Of a stretch of DNA of 64,000 bases, positions 36,622 through 41,883 are shown piece after piece. The first letter of the stretch is position 1, and the number at the start of each line of letters is the position of its first letter. The notes below the pieces were generated by a model, which did no database searches, was not told where the DNA came from, and worked only from the letters and a program-made list of their open reading frames with translations. Origin of the DNA: Kribbella monticola (GTDB taxonomy: Bacteria > Actinomycetota > Actinomycetes > Propionibacteriales > Kribbellaceae); NCBI RefSeq assembly GCF_003261635.1, contig NZ_QFXK01000001.1, forward strand, positions 1 through 64,000. Reading direction: 5' to 3'. Made by a program: the position numbers and the translations under genes.

Positions 36622-37417
36622 GGATGACCAGGGTGACGATCGCGACGGCCGCCACGGCGAGGGTGACCAGAAAGGGCGCGTTCTTCCAGGCGACGATCGC
36701 GACCAGCAGGCCTGCGTTGACGGCCAGGGTGATCCAGCCGATTGCGCCGATCGGGCCGTCCGGCGCGATCACCAGCAGGGCCGTGGCGACCGCGAGCGGC
36801 AGCGGCGCCAGCACCCGGGCGGCTTCCCCGAGCCGCTGCGGCCAGCCCCGGACACCGGTGGCGAGGTCGTCCGCGAGATCCGGTACGACGTTTGCCAGAT
36901 GGGCACCGACACCCAGGAGCGCGCCGGCGGCGGTGGCCCACCACGGCGCCCAGGTGTCCGCGGTACCGAGGGTCACGAAGGACGGCAGCAGGCCGAACGC
37001 GACGGCGTACGGGAACCAGGAGATTCGGGTGGACTTCAGTTTCAGGTTGTACGCCCAGGCAGCTGCCACGGCGACGAGATGGACCAGTCCCGCGAGCAGT
37101 CCGCTGGCCAGCGACAGCGGCACGCAGGCGATCGCCATCACGACCGCGCCGATGCCGACCGTCCGGCGACTCACCAGTCCGAGCACGATCGGTTTGTCTT
37201 TCCGGGCCACACTGGTGTCGCGGGTTGCGTCAATCGCGTCATTGCTCCAGCCGATCGAGAGGTGGCCGGTGAGGATTGCTGCGGCGACTAGGAAGCAGCC
37301 GGCGGCGTTGCGGCCGGCCGACCAGGCGACCACCGTGATCAAGGTGGTGACGGCGACGGTCGGACCCGGATGGGATGCCATCCCCAGACCCTTGAGGGTG
37401 CGCGCGAGGCTGCTCAC
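36599..37417 (-). CDS. UbiA-family prenyltransferase
   Basis: A 272-aa membrane prenyltransferase that attaches an isoprenoid chain to an aromatic or polyketide acceptor. The first Asp-rich motif is NDAIDATRDTSVARKDKP, and the second is PDLADDLATG; both bind Mg-pyrophosphate. Seven to eight hydrophobic segments are present. I give the GTG at 37417; an ATG at 37381 with AAGGG upstream is an equally possible start. It is divergent from the polyketide synthase gene across 18 bp (or 54 bp with the ATG), so both share regulatory DNA. It probably modifies or supplies the product of that operon. Confidence 0.85.
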   Translation of the reverse strand: MSSLARTLKGLGMASHPGPTVAVTTLITVVAWSAGRNAAGCFLVAAAILTGHLSIGWSNDAIDATRDTSVARKDKPIVLGLVSRRTVGIGAVVMAIACVPLSLASGLLAGLVHLVAVAAAWAYNLKLKSTRISWFPYAVAFGLLPSFVTLGTADTWAPWWATAAGALLGVGAHLANVVPDLADDLATGVRGWPQRLGEAARVLAPLPLAVATALLVIAPDGPIGAIGWITLAVNAGLLVAIVAWKNAPFLVTLAVAAVAIVTLVIRGDALTS

Positions 37418-37435
37418 CGGAGCAACGATGCCACG

Positions 37436-38482
37436 ATGACCCGGATCGCCGCGGCACAGGCCGCGTTCCCGCCCCACCGGTACGAACAGCACGAGCTCAC
37501 CGACGCCTTCGCCGAGATCTGCCTGCCCGACGGCAAGGGGCACGCCCTGCTGCGCCGGTTGCATGAGAACGCCGGCGTCTCCCATCGACACCTGGCGCTG
37601 CCACTGGAGCAGTACGCCGTACTGAAGGACTTCGGCGAAGCCAACGATGCGTGGATCTCGGTGGCGGTCGACCTCGGTGCGGCTGCCGTCTCGGAGGCGC
37701 TGGCAGCGGCGGGCTTGTCCGTGTCGGACGTCGATGTGCTGATGTTCACCACGGTCACCGGGGTGGCCGCGCCATCGATCGACGCGCGGGTCGCGATGCG
37801 GCTCGGGCTGCGGGAGGACGTCAAGCGGCTGCCGTTGTTCGGACTCGGCTGCGTCGGGGGAGCGGCGGGGATCGCCCGCCTGCACGACTACTTGCTGGCC
37901 TGGCCGACGCACGTCGCAGTACTGCTGTCGGTGGAGTTGTGTTCGTTGACCCTGCAGCGGGACGACTCGTCGTTGCCCAATCTGGTCGGTGGCGCGTTGT
38001 TCGGGGACGGCGCTGCTGCGGTGGTGCTGACCGGTTCGGACCACCCGGCTGCTGCCGGGCCTTCGGTGGTGGCGACCCGGAGCCGGTTGTATCCGGACTC
38101 CGAGCGGGTGATGGGCTGGGACGTCGGGTCGGGTGGGTTCCGGATCGTGCTCGGTGCGGACGTGCCGGACGTGGTGCGCAAGTACCTCGGTGGGGACGTC
38201 GGGGCATTCCTCGGCGACCACGGGTTGACCGTGCCCGAGATCGGGACCTGGGTGTCTCATCCCGGCGGCCCGAAGGTTCTGGAGGCGGTGTCGGAGACGC
38301 TCGGGTTGCGGCCCGGCGCGCTCGACGTGACCTGGAGATCGCTGGACGCCGTTGGCAACTTGTCGTCATCGTCGGTCCTGCACGTGCTCGGTGACACCCT
38401 GCGGCTGGATCCTTCAGGTATGGGCGTCCTGCTGGCGATGGGCCCCGGTTTCTGTTCCGAGCTCGTCCTGCTGGAGTGGTGA
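37436..38482 (+). CDS. Type III polyketide synthase (SrsA-like)
   Basis: A 348-aa chalcone/stilbene-synthase-fold enzyme that extends an acyl-CoA with malonyl-CoA to an alkylresorcinol, pyrone or similar ring. The triad can be placed: C139 in LFGLGCVGG, H275 in WVSHPGGPK and N308 in VGNLSSSS. FGDGAAAVV and the GPGF loop near the C-terminus are conserved. ATG at 37436 was chosen because longer frames run into the divergent gene. The stop overlaps the next start (TGATG). The order synthase, ICMT-like methyltransferase, FAD hydroxylase matches the srsABC phenolic-lipid operon of Streptomyces griseus. Confidence 0.92.
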   Translation: MTRIAAAQAAFPPHRYEQHELTDAFAEICLPDGKGHALLRRLHENAGVSHRHLALPLEQYAVLKDFGEANDAWISVAVDLGAAAVSEALAAAGLSVSDVDVLMFTTVTGVAAPSIDARVAMRLGLREDVKRLPLFGLGCVGGAAGIARLHDYLLAWPTHVAVLLSVELCSLTLQRDDSSLPNLVGGALFGDGAAAVVLTGSDHPAAAGPSVVATRSRLYPDSERVMGWDVGSGGFRIVLGADVPDVVRKYLGGDVGAFLGDHGLTVPEIGTWVSHPGGPKVLEAVSETLGLRPGALDVTWRSLDAVGNLSSSSVLHVLGDTLRLDPSGMGVLLAMGPGFCSELVLLEW

Positions 38483-39009
38483 TGTCAACGTCGTTGTGGC
38501 TGTACGTCGTACTGATCGTGCTGGTCGGCCTGGAACGTGTCGCGGAGCTGGTGGTGTCGCTGCGCAACGCCCGGTGGAGCTTCGAGCGGGGCGGGGTGGA
38601 GACCGGCAAGGGGCACTACCCGTTCATGGTCGTGCTGCACACCGGGTTCCTGGCGGGCTGTCTGGTCGAGGCGATCGTCGCGGACCGGCCGTTCATTCCG
38701 GCCCTGGGGTGGACGATGCTTGCCGTGGTGCTGCTTGCACAGGGGTTGCGGTGGTGGTGCATCACGGTGCTCGGCCATCAGTGGAACACCCGCGTGATCG
38801 TCGTACCGGGATTGTCATTGGTTGCCGCCGGCCCCTATCGGTGGATCCGTCATCCGAACTACGTCGCGGTGGTGGCTGAGGGGATCGCCCTGCCGCTGGT
38901 GCATACGGCCTGGATCACGGCGGTGGTGTTCCTCGTGCTGAACATCCCGCTGCTGACCGTCCGGATCCGCGCCGAAGAGGCTGCGCTGGACGGTGCGCTG
39001 ACGAAGTGA
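38482..39009 (+). CDS. ICMT-like methyltransferase (SrsB-like)
   Basis: A 175-aa membrane protein with about four hydrophobic segments. GPYRWIRHPNYVAVVAEGIALPL is close to the isoprenylcysteine carboxyl methyltransferase SAM-binding signature (RHPxY). It shares its first base with the synthase stop and overlaps the next gene by 4 bp. In the srs pathway the homologue O-methylates the alkylresorcinol ring, and the same role is likely here. Confidence 0.9.
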   Translation: MSTSLWLYVVLIVLVGLERVAELVVSLRNARWSFERGGVETGKGHYPFMVVLHTGFLAGCLVEAIVADRPFIPALGWTMLAVVLLAQGLRWWCITVLGHQWNTRVIVVPGLSLVAAGPYRWIRHPNYVAVVAEGIALPLVHTAWITAVVFLVLNIPLLTVRIRAEEAALDGALTK

Positions 39010-40022
39010 TCGACCTTCTCGTCGCGGGGGCCGGTCCGGCCGGTGCGGCAACCGCGATCCGGGCCGCGCTCGCGGGGCTGTCGGTCGTCGTGGTCGAACC
39101 GCGCAAAGGGCCGATCGACAAGGCCTGCGGCGAAGGGATCGCGCACAGTGCGGTCGAATATCTGCAGCGGCTCGGCGTTCGTCTGGAAGGCCGGCCGTTC
39201 GCCGGGATCCGGTATCTGGATTCCTCGCATTGTGTCGACGCCCGCTTCCGGGCCGGCCCGGGACTCGGCGTACGGCGTACGGTGCTGCAGGCCGCCCTGC
39301 TGGATCGCCTTGCTGCGCTGGAGGTTCCGGTCATCGCGAGCCGGGTCGACGCGATCAGTCAGAACGCTTCGTCGGTCACTGCGGCCGGGCTCACCGCCCG
39401 CTATTTGGCGGCTGCCGATGGGTTGCATTCACCGACCCGGCGTCAACTCGGGTTGGGAATGGAAAGGTCGGGGGAGGTACGGCGAGGGCTGCGGCGGCAT
39501 TTCTCGACTGCGCCTTGGACCGAGCTTGTGGAGGTCTATTGGTCGCCGCTCGGCGAGGCTTATGTGACGCCGGTGGCGGACGACCTCGTCGGTGTCGCTG
39601 TGTTGACTTCGGCCCGGGGGTCTTTCGATTCCCATCTCGAGGCGTTTCCTGCTTTGAAGCGCCGGCTGGAGGGTGCTTTGCCGGCTTCCGAGGTGATGGG
39701 TGCGGGGCCGCTGCGTCAGCGGGTGCGTAGTCGCGTCGCGGGTCGAGTGATGCTGGTCGGCGACGCGGCCGGATATGTCGATGCGCTGACCGGCGAAGGG
39801 ATCGCCGTGGCCTTGCGTACCTCCGCGGAACTGGTGCGCTGTGTGGTCGAGGATCGTCCCGCGGCGTACGACGCGGCCTGGCGACGGGTTTCGCGAGAGG
39901 CTCGTTTCCTCACCGCATCGTTGCTGTGGGCCCGCAACAGGTCGTTGCTCACTCCCCGCATCGTGCCGGCGGCGGCTGTCCTGCCTGGGCTCTACGGCGC
40001 GATCGTCAACCGGCTGGCTTGA
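39006..40022 (+). CDS. FAD-dependent hydroxylase (SrsC-like)
   Basis: A 338-aa flavoprotein monooxygenase of the geranylgeranyl-reductase/aromatic-hydroxylase group. LVAGAGPAGAATAIRAA (residues about 5-21) binds ADP. DGLHSPTRRQLG is the second nucleotide contact. MLVGDAAGYVDALTGEGI is the GD motif with the conserved tail. It is probably cytoplasmic and acts on the ring made by the upstream synthase, as SrsC does in phenolic lipid quinone formation. The GTG start overlaps the methyltransferase stop (GTGA). Confidence 0.9.
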   Translation: MIDLLVAGAGPAGAATAIRAALAGLSVVVVEPRKGPIDKACGEGIAHSAVEYLQRLGVRLEGRPFAGIRYLDSSHCVDARFRAGPGLGVRRTVLQAALLDRLAALEVPVIASRVDAISQNASSVTAAGLTARYLAAADGLHSPTRRQLGLGMERSGEVRRGLRRHFSTAPWTELVEVYWSPLGEAYVTPVADDLVGVAVLTSARGSFDSHLEAFPALKRRLEGALPASEVMGAGPLRQRVRSRVAGRVMLVGDAAGYVDALTGEGIAVALRTSAELVRCVVEDRPAAYDAAWRRVSREARFLTASLLWARNRSLLTPRIVPAAAVLPGLYGAIVNRLA

Positions 40023-40070
40023 TGCCGGTTGTCTTATGCCGGTTGTCTGCTGCCGCCGGAAAACGCGCGG

Positions 40071-40100
40071 GCCCGGCGATCGCTCAGACAATCGCCGGGC
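40071..40100 (+). terminator. 10-bp hairpin after the phenolic-lipid-type operon
   Basis: GCCCGGCGAT and ATCGCCGGGC form a perfect stem with a 10-nt loop, 49 nt after the last stop. It is followed at once by the three constant-loop hairpins. Confidence 0.6.
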
Positions 40101-40109
40101 CACGCGGTG

Positions 40110-40202
40110 CCCGAGCATCCTGGTGAAAAGCTCGGGCGTTCGTCCCAGCATCCTGGTGAAATGCTGGGACGGTTTGCCTCAGCATCCTGGTGAAAAGCTG
40201 AG
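40110..40202. repeat. Three tandem hairpins with one conserved loop
   Basis: Hairpin 1 (40110-40136) has stem CCCGAGC/GCTCGGG. Hairpin 2 (40141-40171) has CGTCCCAGCA/TGCTGGGACG. Hairpin 3 (40178-40202) has CTCAGC/GCTGAG. Each encloses the same ATCCTGGTGAAA core. Stems differ but are each self-complementary, so structure is kept while sequence changes. The array lies between convergent transcripts, so it belongs to the 3' end of one or both. The 300-bp spacer holds no gene. Confidence 0.75.
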
Positions 40203-40335
40203 ACAAGTCCGTCAGGTGATCGAGTCTGCTGTGCGAGCGACCCGGCCTCCCTTGTGACCTCAACAATTCCATCCGGATGTTGCTCAACGATTGCCGGAAT
40301 ATGAAGCCTTGTTACCCAGGCCTGTGGCGTAGGTC

Positions 40336-41883
40336 TCAGTGCTCGGTCCGGACGGCGGCGATCTGGAGCTGGAGAGCGAGCCGTTCGCGCGGATCGGACA
40401 GGTCGAGCGTCGCGATCTCGCCGATCCGCTTCATCCGGTGCCGCAGGGTGTTCGGGTGCAGGTGGAGTTGCTTGGCCGCTTGCTGCGGCTGGCCGGGGTA
40501 GTTGAGCCAGGCCTGCAAGGTGTCGACGAAGTCGGTGTCGTGCTCGATGTCGTGCCTCAGGAGCGTGGCCAGCGGACCGTCCAGTTTGGTCGTATCCAGC
40601 GAGGTGACGGCCCGGTGCACGGTCAGCAGGTGCCAGGCCTGCTCGACACGAATGGCCGGCCCCGGCGCGGCTCCACGGCGTACGAGGCCTAGGAGCTCGA
40701 CTGCCTCCGCCCTGGAGCTCGGGAGGTCTGCGGGGCCACGTGCGCGGCCGCCTGCGGCCGCCGTAGTACCGGGGGCGTCTTTGACCAGGTCGACCATGAG
40801 TCGGCGCAACCAGCGCCACGACCCGGGTCCGTCCGCGTCTGTGACGACCGCTAGGACCGTGCCGTCGAGATCGGCCAGCTGTGGCTCGCTCCACCCGTGC
40901 CGGCGACCCGTCGACTCCCAGAGGTCGAGCTGCTGCGGTACGTCGTACCCGCTGGGGGAGCCGAGTGCTACGACGCGCCACGGTGGCGGTGGGAGGCGTA
41001 CGTCGACAGTGGTGTCCGGTGAGAACTGTCTGAGGACAGTGCGCAGACGGTCGATGGCACTGCGCCTCGCGACGTCGGCTTGAGCCCGGAGCCGCAGGAG
41101 GTGCAGTGCGAGGACAGAGGCCGCGTTGCTCAGTTCGGCGGTCACCTCGTCGCTGACCGGCCCGTCGACCACCGCCCAGATGGACCCGAGCCACTCACCC
41201 CCGGCCCGGACCGGTACGACGAGGCGCGGGCGGATGCCGTTGGGGCCGTTCGGGACCAGGAACGGCTCGCTCGACCTCGCCAGGCGGCGGAAGATCCCGC
41301 GGGCGCGGAAGTGCGCGATGACCTCGGCAGGGACCCGACGGCCGACGATCGTGGAGACGCGGGTGGGGTCGGTGAGGTCCTGACCGGAGGAGTACGCCAG
41401 TACGCGGCTCTGGTTGTCCTCGATGGTCACTGGAGCGTCCACGATCGCTGCTGCGGCGTCTGCGAGTGCGAAAAGCTCTTGGTGTACTCCGGCGTCACCG
41501 GCGACGGGGGAGTCGGGTGCTGCCGCTCTGTCGATCACGCCGCGCAGTAGCCAGACGACGTGGGCCCAGGTGACGCTCGGCTGGAGTGCGACGAGCGTGA
41601 TGAGCCACCGCTCGGCTGTCGCGACCACCAGGGGATCCCTGGCGAGGGCGGCCCGTAGTACGACTCCTGACGCGTTGCCGGCGGCGCAGCGCTCCAGGAG
41701 CTCGACGGCGTCCTCGGCGTCACGTAGGCCCAGACCGAGTACCAGGTCGCCGGGTTGACCGGTCGCCGCCTCCTGCGGGTCGGCGAGGAAGACATCGCGG
41801 ACCTCGTCGTCCCCGTGGCCGCGGACGACGACTTCGAACAGAGCCGGTCCGACGGCAACGACCAGGTCAGGCGCAGTGATCAT
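40336..41883 (-). CDS. PucR-family regulator
   Basis: A 515-aa one-component regulator. The N-terminal about 180 residues are the PucR/CdaR-like ligand region, followed by a GGDEF-like degenerate segment. The C-terminal HTH is WLNYPGQPQQAAKQLHLHPN with NTLRHRMKRIGEI. It is divergent from a DadA-like dehydrogenase with strong palindromes between, so it probably activates that gene in response to an amino acid. PucR regulators control purine and amino-acid catabolism in other bacteria. Confidence 0.88.
   Translation of the reverse strand: MITAPDLVVAVGPALFEVVVRGHGDDEVRDVFLADPQEAATGQPGDLVLGLGLRDAEDAVELLERCAAGNASGVVLRAALARDPLVVATAERWLITLVALQPSVTWAHVVWLLRGVIDRAAAPDSPVAGDAGVHQELFALADAAAAIVDAPVTIEDNQSRVLAYSSGQDLTDPTRVSTIVGRRVPAEVIAHFRARGIFRRLARSSEPFLVPNGPNGIRPRLVVPVRAGGEWLGSIWAVVDGPVSDEVTAELSNAASVLALHLLRLRAQADVARRSAIDRLRTVLRQFSPDTTVDVRLPPPPWRVVALGSPSGYDVPQQLDLWESTGRRHGWSEPQLADLDGTVLAVVTDADGPGSWRWLRRLMVDLVKDAPGTTAAAGGRARGPADLPSSRAEAVELLGLVRRGAAPGPAIRVEQAWHLLTVHRAVTSLDTTKLDGPLATLLRHDIEHDTDFVDTLQAWLNYPGQPQQAAKQLHLHPNTLRHRMKRIGEIATLDLSDPRERLALQLQIAAVRTEH

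Follow-up and report, generated by a model that had tools for sequence, protein, structure and literature searches.

A genus-specific structured element of Kribbella built from tandem hairpins with a shared loop

CsrB and RsmZ carry repeated hairpins that present one loop motif to titrate a protein, and RNAs of this type are defined by GGA in their loops. LhrC exposes loops with one short shared seed, and repeats of the REP/BIME type are defined by numerous copies scattered through each genome. In actinobacteria, little is known about small RNAs and the proteins that partner them. According to passages of its published description, sX13 of Xanthomonas has three stems with C-rich loops and acts, independently of Hfq, on G-rich motifs near start codons; the same passages describe staphylococcal UCCC-loop RNAs, whose loops share one short seed (PMC3771888). 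Excerpts on the ANTAR-target RNAs of actinobacteria give dual stem-loops with hexanucleotide loops carrying A1 and G4 (PMC8164766), and an excerpt on Ms1 RNA gives HAD-hydrolase type genes as its flanks (PMC9130861).

Here, we analyze a row of hairpins within a 64,000-nucleotide stretch of the Kribbella monticola genome (the window). Judged from its sequences, the element is, with a probability of roughly 0.6, a Kribbella-specific noncoding RNA gene composed of two or three hairpin modules, each presenting the same 9-nt loop. Its length would be about 140-210 nt. Searches in E-value mode of window positions 39000-41000 and six further loci returned no Rfam family at its gathering score. The nearest family is sX13 (RF02232), aligned over the full model on the minus strand of a single locus (L061) at 30.4 bits against a cut-off of 50; it was matched neither in the window at E up to 5 nor in the five other loci at E up to 0.5. 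We therefore take the resemblance as one of architecture, not membership. Among the papers listed by literature searches that did not cover subscription papers, none describes the Kribbella element, which is no proof of absence; of the listed papers that contain the loop letters, none concerns a bacterial RNA by its title.

Tandem hairpins in the window

The element lies between an operon of type III PKS, ICMT, and FAD-oxygenase genes (37370-40022) and a PucR-type gene, which confirms the intergenic site given in an earlier note on this DNA. The last operon gene encodes a FAD-dependent oxygenase-like protein (FAD_binding_3; 39006-40022, plus strand), and the PucR-type regulator (HTH_30; 40336-41883, minus strand) is convergent with it. 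The three tandem hairpins reported in that note, with identical loops and differing, self-complementary stems, are real: exact copies of ATCCTGGTGAAA lie at 40117-40128, 40150-40161, and 40184-40195. This 12-mer forms the tip of each hairpin and has no other exact copy in the 8.03-Mb genome. A further 27 sites match it with one mismatch; 26 of them have at most four of eight flanking pairs and were rejected as additional copies, and the remaining one has six of eight flanking pairs with a broken closing pair.

Unit 1 (40109-40137) carries the loop CCTGGTGAA at 40119-40127, which reads UUCACCAGG on the minus strand. Unit 2 (40142-40170) and unit 3 (40176-40204) hold their loops at 40152-40160 and 40186-40194. 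The unit stems are GCCCGAGC/GCTCGGGC, TCCCAGCA/TGCTGGGA, and CTCAGC/GCTGAG, with an A.A mismatch next outward of the closing pair in two of the three units. The loop had been given as 12 nt long; it is indeed conserved, but the invariant part, CCTGGTGAA, spans 9 nt, as the flanking T and A pair with each other. Together they close the loop, and this pair covaries among species (T-A in 72, C-G in 15, and G-C in 3 of 90 units). The array occupies 40110-40202 as first described, but the full element runs past both sides of that interval.

Hairpin 0 (40070-40101) has an 11-bp stem and the loop CGCTCAGACA, and it would be terminator-like at the 3′ end of an RNA read on the minus strand, where a run of four T follows it (40060-40063). 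Its 32-mer is identical in 17 of the 38 genus genomes, and the loop letters are kept in 33 of 38 (exceptions G007, G028, G022, G024, and G031). Folding of the region is markedly stable on both strands, with z = -5.4 for the plus strand (40050-40215) and z = -8.0 for the minus strand (40105-40210); 0 of 200 shuffles fold equally well in either case.

Conservation and distribution

The 38 genomes contain 90 intact units, three in each of 15 genomes, two in 22, and one in G010, whose second unit is broken. All 90 carry the CCTGGTGAA loop, a count that itself selects on this loop; a relaxed search permitting up to three loop mismatches recovered no unit with a variant loop, its six non-exact placements all lying elsewhere. 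Covariation was assessed on 40 distinct units of 42, two units of G031 being out of register and left out. Within this set, 97.2% of stem cells are paired versus 76.7% after shuffling, and slid controls, with the partner moved by one base, pair at 45% or less. Seven of eight stem pairs have changed on both sides with pairing kept. The covariation score is 0.665 versus 0.285 for shuffled units (0 of 500 shuffles), while the number of further pair types, one of five covariation measures, is lower than in the shuffles (10 versus 13.2). The proposal that structure and loop are the conserved part is thereby upheld, with one loop in 90 units and stems kept as pairs. An invariant loop on covarying stems looks like a structured RNA with a loop-specific function.

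Two details accompany this pattern. The closing pair is uniform across a genome's units in 28 of 37 multi-unit genomes, and homogenization of the units is only a possibility because a T-A closing pair is the common state. The loop core, CCUGG, is self-complementary except at a U.U mismatch, which makes loop-loop kissing conceivable, whether from module to module or from molecule to molecule. A coding repeat was also considered and rejected: by eye, the reading frames through the block lack codon-like variation, the ATGTTGCC frame varying at codon positions 1 and 2 and being fixed at position 3. A 138-aa ORF is nevertheless among the mechanical ORFs that run across the units.

Below the loop, stem pair 3 is C-G in 87 of 90 units, and pair 4 has G on the plus 5′ side in 90 of 90. 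These near-invariant pairs, together with a loop-to-loop spacing of 32-38 nt and a module number of one to three, would suit an RNA from either strand that titrates a putative RNA-binding protein recognizing the loop and both pairs, several modules sequestering several protein copies, as CsrB does with CsrA. CsrA itself (PF02599) is, however, absent from the window's genome, the one genome searched (0 of 1, versus 3 of 14 control genomes positive). The base after AGG on the minus strand is variable (A 72, G 15, and C 3 of 90), so GGA is not required in these loops. Titration, which is a sub-case of the best explanation such that the two confidences overlap, is put forward as a tentative account; protein-binding RNA repeats, suggested in the earlier note, are possible.

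A whole-element covariance model, built from the window's element and those of three relatives, matches all 38 genus genomes, the window's own included, at E ≤ 7.5e-9. Recurrence in Kribbella-like genomes, which the earlier note had anticipated, is thus borne out, as all 38 carry the element. The three relatives came from a 19-base pattern and belong to Kribbella catacumbae, Kribbella sp. VKM Ac-2568, and a strain labeled Streptomyces sp. SID13031; they share a three-plus-one hairpin layout and are not counted as additional to the 38. That exact 19-mer scan, run on a named genome collection, gave eight places, comprising these three Kribbella-type elements and five single unrelated matches. 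Despite its Streptomyces label, the SID13031 genome, which carries a Kribbella element, probably belongs to Kribbella by taxonomy.

Each genus genome has one strong element match, except for G012 with two identical ones. The G012 region is present twice (L055 and L077), identical over 920 bases, in a genome with 7% estimated contamination, possibly through assembly duplication. Weaker secondary whole-element matches within the genus range from E 4e-4 to 0.08, and several are the same locus on the opposite strand. Widening the search to the family added no genome to the 38 of the genus. In an order sample of 245 genomes, all 38 genus genomes match, along with 3 of the 207 others (G161, G092, and G168) at E 8e-4 to 5e-3, which lack tandem units by eye and were rejected as relatives. 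The single-unit model, run against a class sample of 296 genomes, found the window's own genome and nine weak matches in other genera, likewise rejected, as each is one hairpin with no tandem unit by eye. No convincing relative was thus found among the 207 other-genus genomes of the order or in the 296-genome class sample. The covariance-model search that the earlier note had proposed revealed an element recurring genus-wide and, in the order and class samples covered, does not support a family across actinobacteria. A plasmid collection gave two short matches.

Within the genus, the single-unit model was run on 13 genomes and matched all 13, reaching E ≤ 1.5e-7 at the element locus only (the G012 locus twice). 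Five weaker unit matches occur elsewhere, two in G006 and three in G024 and G019 (E 0.03-0.08); both of those in G006 are single hairpins after a gene end. A G006 site at C11:542281-542309 (L098, minus strand) combines the loop CCTGGTGAG with a stem resembling GCCCCAGC/GCTGGGGC at E 3e-5, and is either a stray copy or a chance match.

With strong unit matches confined to one locus in the 13 genus genomes searched, the suggestion of a REP-like dispersed element is not supported. The same confinement weighs against a broader DNA-level role, as a cruciform or single-stranded hairpin for a recombinase, a REP-like sequence, or clustered DNA protein sites. Such a role would fit inverted repeats that share an asymmetric centre, but synteny is kept across the genus and a double-stranded DNA site needs no stem covariation; we regard it as very improbable. 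Matches in 38 of 38 genus genomes, one shared loop, stems that change in pairs, no convincing relative in the order and class samples, and no Rfam family at its gathering score mark this as a structured element specific to the genus rather than a dispersed repeat or plain terminator.

Strand, candidate promoter, and neighboring genes

A conserved 39-nt block, GTAACAAGGCTTCATATTCCGGCAATCGTTGAGCAACAT (40277-40315, minus strand), is separated by 20 nt from the PucR-type gene's stop codon. It contains a candidate promoter, TTCATA (40305-40300) and CAACAT (40282-40277) separated by 17 nt, whose hexamers were picked after viewing the alignment. The pattern TTCAYA-N17-CAACAT is present in 34 of 38 genomes, G031 included, and fails in G003, G019, G004, and G001; a consensus scan of 39950-40400 reported no promoter and no terminator. 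BLAST places the block beside the hairpins in 37 of 38 genus genomes, and the diverged copy in G031 is recognizable by eye. Searched alone against the rest of the order sample, the block gave one 25-base match (E 0.006). In 35 of 38 genomes, the block also contains direct repeats, GGCAAY and RGCAAC, ~11 bp apart, which overlap the candidate promoter and may be a binding site for a regulator. An extra hairpin, CTGACA-loop-TGTCAG, sits between the last unit and the block in 14 of 22 two-unit genomes and in no others.

In a minus-strand reading, the block precedes the hairpins and hairpin 0 falls at the 3′ end. Transcription would start in the block, from a promoter within it, pass through the modules with loop UUCACCAGG, and end at hairpin 0, a course that these sequence features make likely; the RNA gene would then extend from 40060 to 40271. 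The fold is the more stable one on the minus strand in 37 of 38 genomes, and in 29 of 38 with the loops replaced by A's. The 16 nt after hairpin 0 on this strand hold a mean of 4.1 T, with a run of at least three in 19 of 38 genomes, versus 1.5 T and 2 of 38 at the plus-side counterpart, which runs into unit 1 and is not a clean control. Positions further out on the minus strand past hairpin 0 hold means of 2.9 and 2.1 T, with such runs in 3 and 1 of 38 genomes, respectively. The weak sX13 match also falls on the minus strand.

Wobble pairs give a mixed, contradictory picture of the strand. Among the 720 cells of the 8-bp stems read on the plus strand, there are 13 G.T, versus 1 A.C and 19 other mismatches, and the G.T wobbles recur at pair 4 through at least seven parsimony changes (3 + 4), which favors a plus-strand RNA. 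By contrast, the C.A seen at position 9 of 47 of 90 units would wobble (U.G) on the minus strand only, and 10 genomes show A.C in hairpin 0 versus one or two with G.T.

On the plus strand, the CCUGGUGAA-loop modules could be a 3′-UTR module or a processed 3′-end small RNA of the upstream gene, for which, besides the recurrent G.T pairs, the position of the oxygenase gene speaks, since in 33 of 38 genomes only 3-153 nt separate its end from the element. Its end is not directly upstream in the other five (G019, G004, G001, G031, and G037), which nevertheless keep the element. Moreover, the stretch preceding hairpin 0 shows little sign of conservation by eye (0.53 over its first 10 nt), the block would become a 3′ tail without an evident role or terminator, and the minus fold is the more stable in nearly all genomes. 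We consider a plus-strand origin doubtful.

The exceptional neighborhoods differ in kind. A DUF305 gene separates oxygenase and element in G019, and the intervening gene in G004 and G001 has a C-terminus similar to that of the G019 DUF305 gene. No oxygenase end is recognized beside the element in G037. The G031 element is flanked on both sides, by an Exo_endo_phos gene toward the oxygenase and by a 156-aa ORF with no Pfam match toward PucR. Assignment to the 3′ UTR of the operon, as originally proposed, is consequently unlikely, and neither neighbor probably has the element as its 3′ UTR, because it persists in some genomes where extra genes adjoin it. Element and block stay when the adjoining genes change and therefore behave as their own unit. 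At L076:3554-3643 in G031, a long near-perfect inverted repeat matches mir-8515 on both strands at 41 bits, below the cut-off, and is surely not a microRNA.

This persistence also bears on a cluster of transcription terminators or mRNA 3′ stabilizers serving two convergent genes. The gene arrangement, the stable GC-rich hairpins, and the terminator-like hairpin 0 agree with such a cluster, but terminators need no conserved loop, yet the loops here are identical while the stems vary; the scan, moreover, finds no hairpin with a T tract, and the element is kept when its neighbors are not. We find this explanation improbable.

Candidate function and comparison with known RNAs

In the noncoding RNA gene that we favor, function would rest on multivalency, the identical loops acting as repeated docking sites for one conserved partner. 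Multivalent docking to one partner is the most parsimonious reading and would explain why the loop is fixed, why the stems need only pair, and why module number is free to vary. The partner may be a set of mRNAs, contacted through loop seeds as in sX13, or an RNA-binding protein, for which the RNA would be a sponge as is CsrB; our analysis puts base-pairing with mRNAs slightly ahead of protein titration. Whether the element founds a new, Kribbella-confined RNA family, a multivalent loop array for a putative RNA-binding protein or mRNA set with a loop of neither the C-rich nor the GGA class, we rate as an even chance.

A target search of 13 genomes gave 129 matches to GGAG-N1-12-CCTGGTGAA and 142 to TTCACCAGG-N1-11-ATG. 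These numbers exceed the reversed-pattern controls, as codon usage alone would give. The 11 of 271 sites inspected, mostly recurrent strings, included none recognizable as a conserved complementary site close to a start codon; their conservation requires no target role because they lie in long open frames (L120 less clearly). With a loop that is the same in all 90 intact units while the stems covary, the element is an almost ideal bait; the loop is the likely binding site, and a pull-down or loop swap could therefore identify the partner directly. The element would offer a defined RNA handle in a genus whose natural products are under study.

Among described systems, sX13 is alike in forming a row of stable stem-loops with like apical motifs. 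Its loops are CCCC, whereas the Kribbella loop is CCTGGTGAA on the plus strand and UUCACCAGG or TTCACCAGG on the minus strand, and sX13 belongs to another phylum and, in the passages of its description cited above, to another locus (polA; PMC3771888). The excerpted ANTAR-target RNAs are likewise tandem stem-loops with conserved loop positions (PMC8164766), unlike which the Kribbella element has a 9-nt loop between covarying pairs, two or three units (three in 15 of 38 genomes), and a convergent intergenic site.

Compared with LhrC and the staphylococcal UCCC-loop RNAs, the element has another seed, and no target for its loop emerged from the inspected sites. Many dispersed copies per genome set REP/BIME repeats apart from the Kribbella units, whose strong matches fall at one locus in every genome searched. 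Intrinsic terminators combine a stem with a T tract, of which the 39950-40400 scan found none, a T run of at least three following hairpin 0 on the minus strand in half of the genomes. CsrB and RsmZ come near in their repeated hairpins and differ in the GGA of their loops, which the Kribbella loops do not require. Set beside these systems, the Kribbella element looks, from its sequence, like an undescribed RNA gene with a repeated putative binding site.
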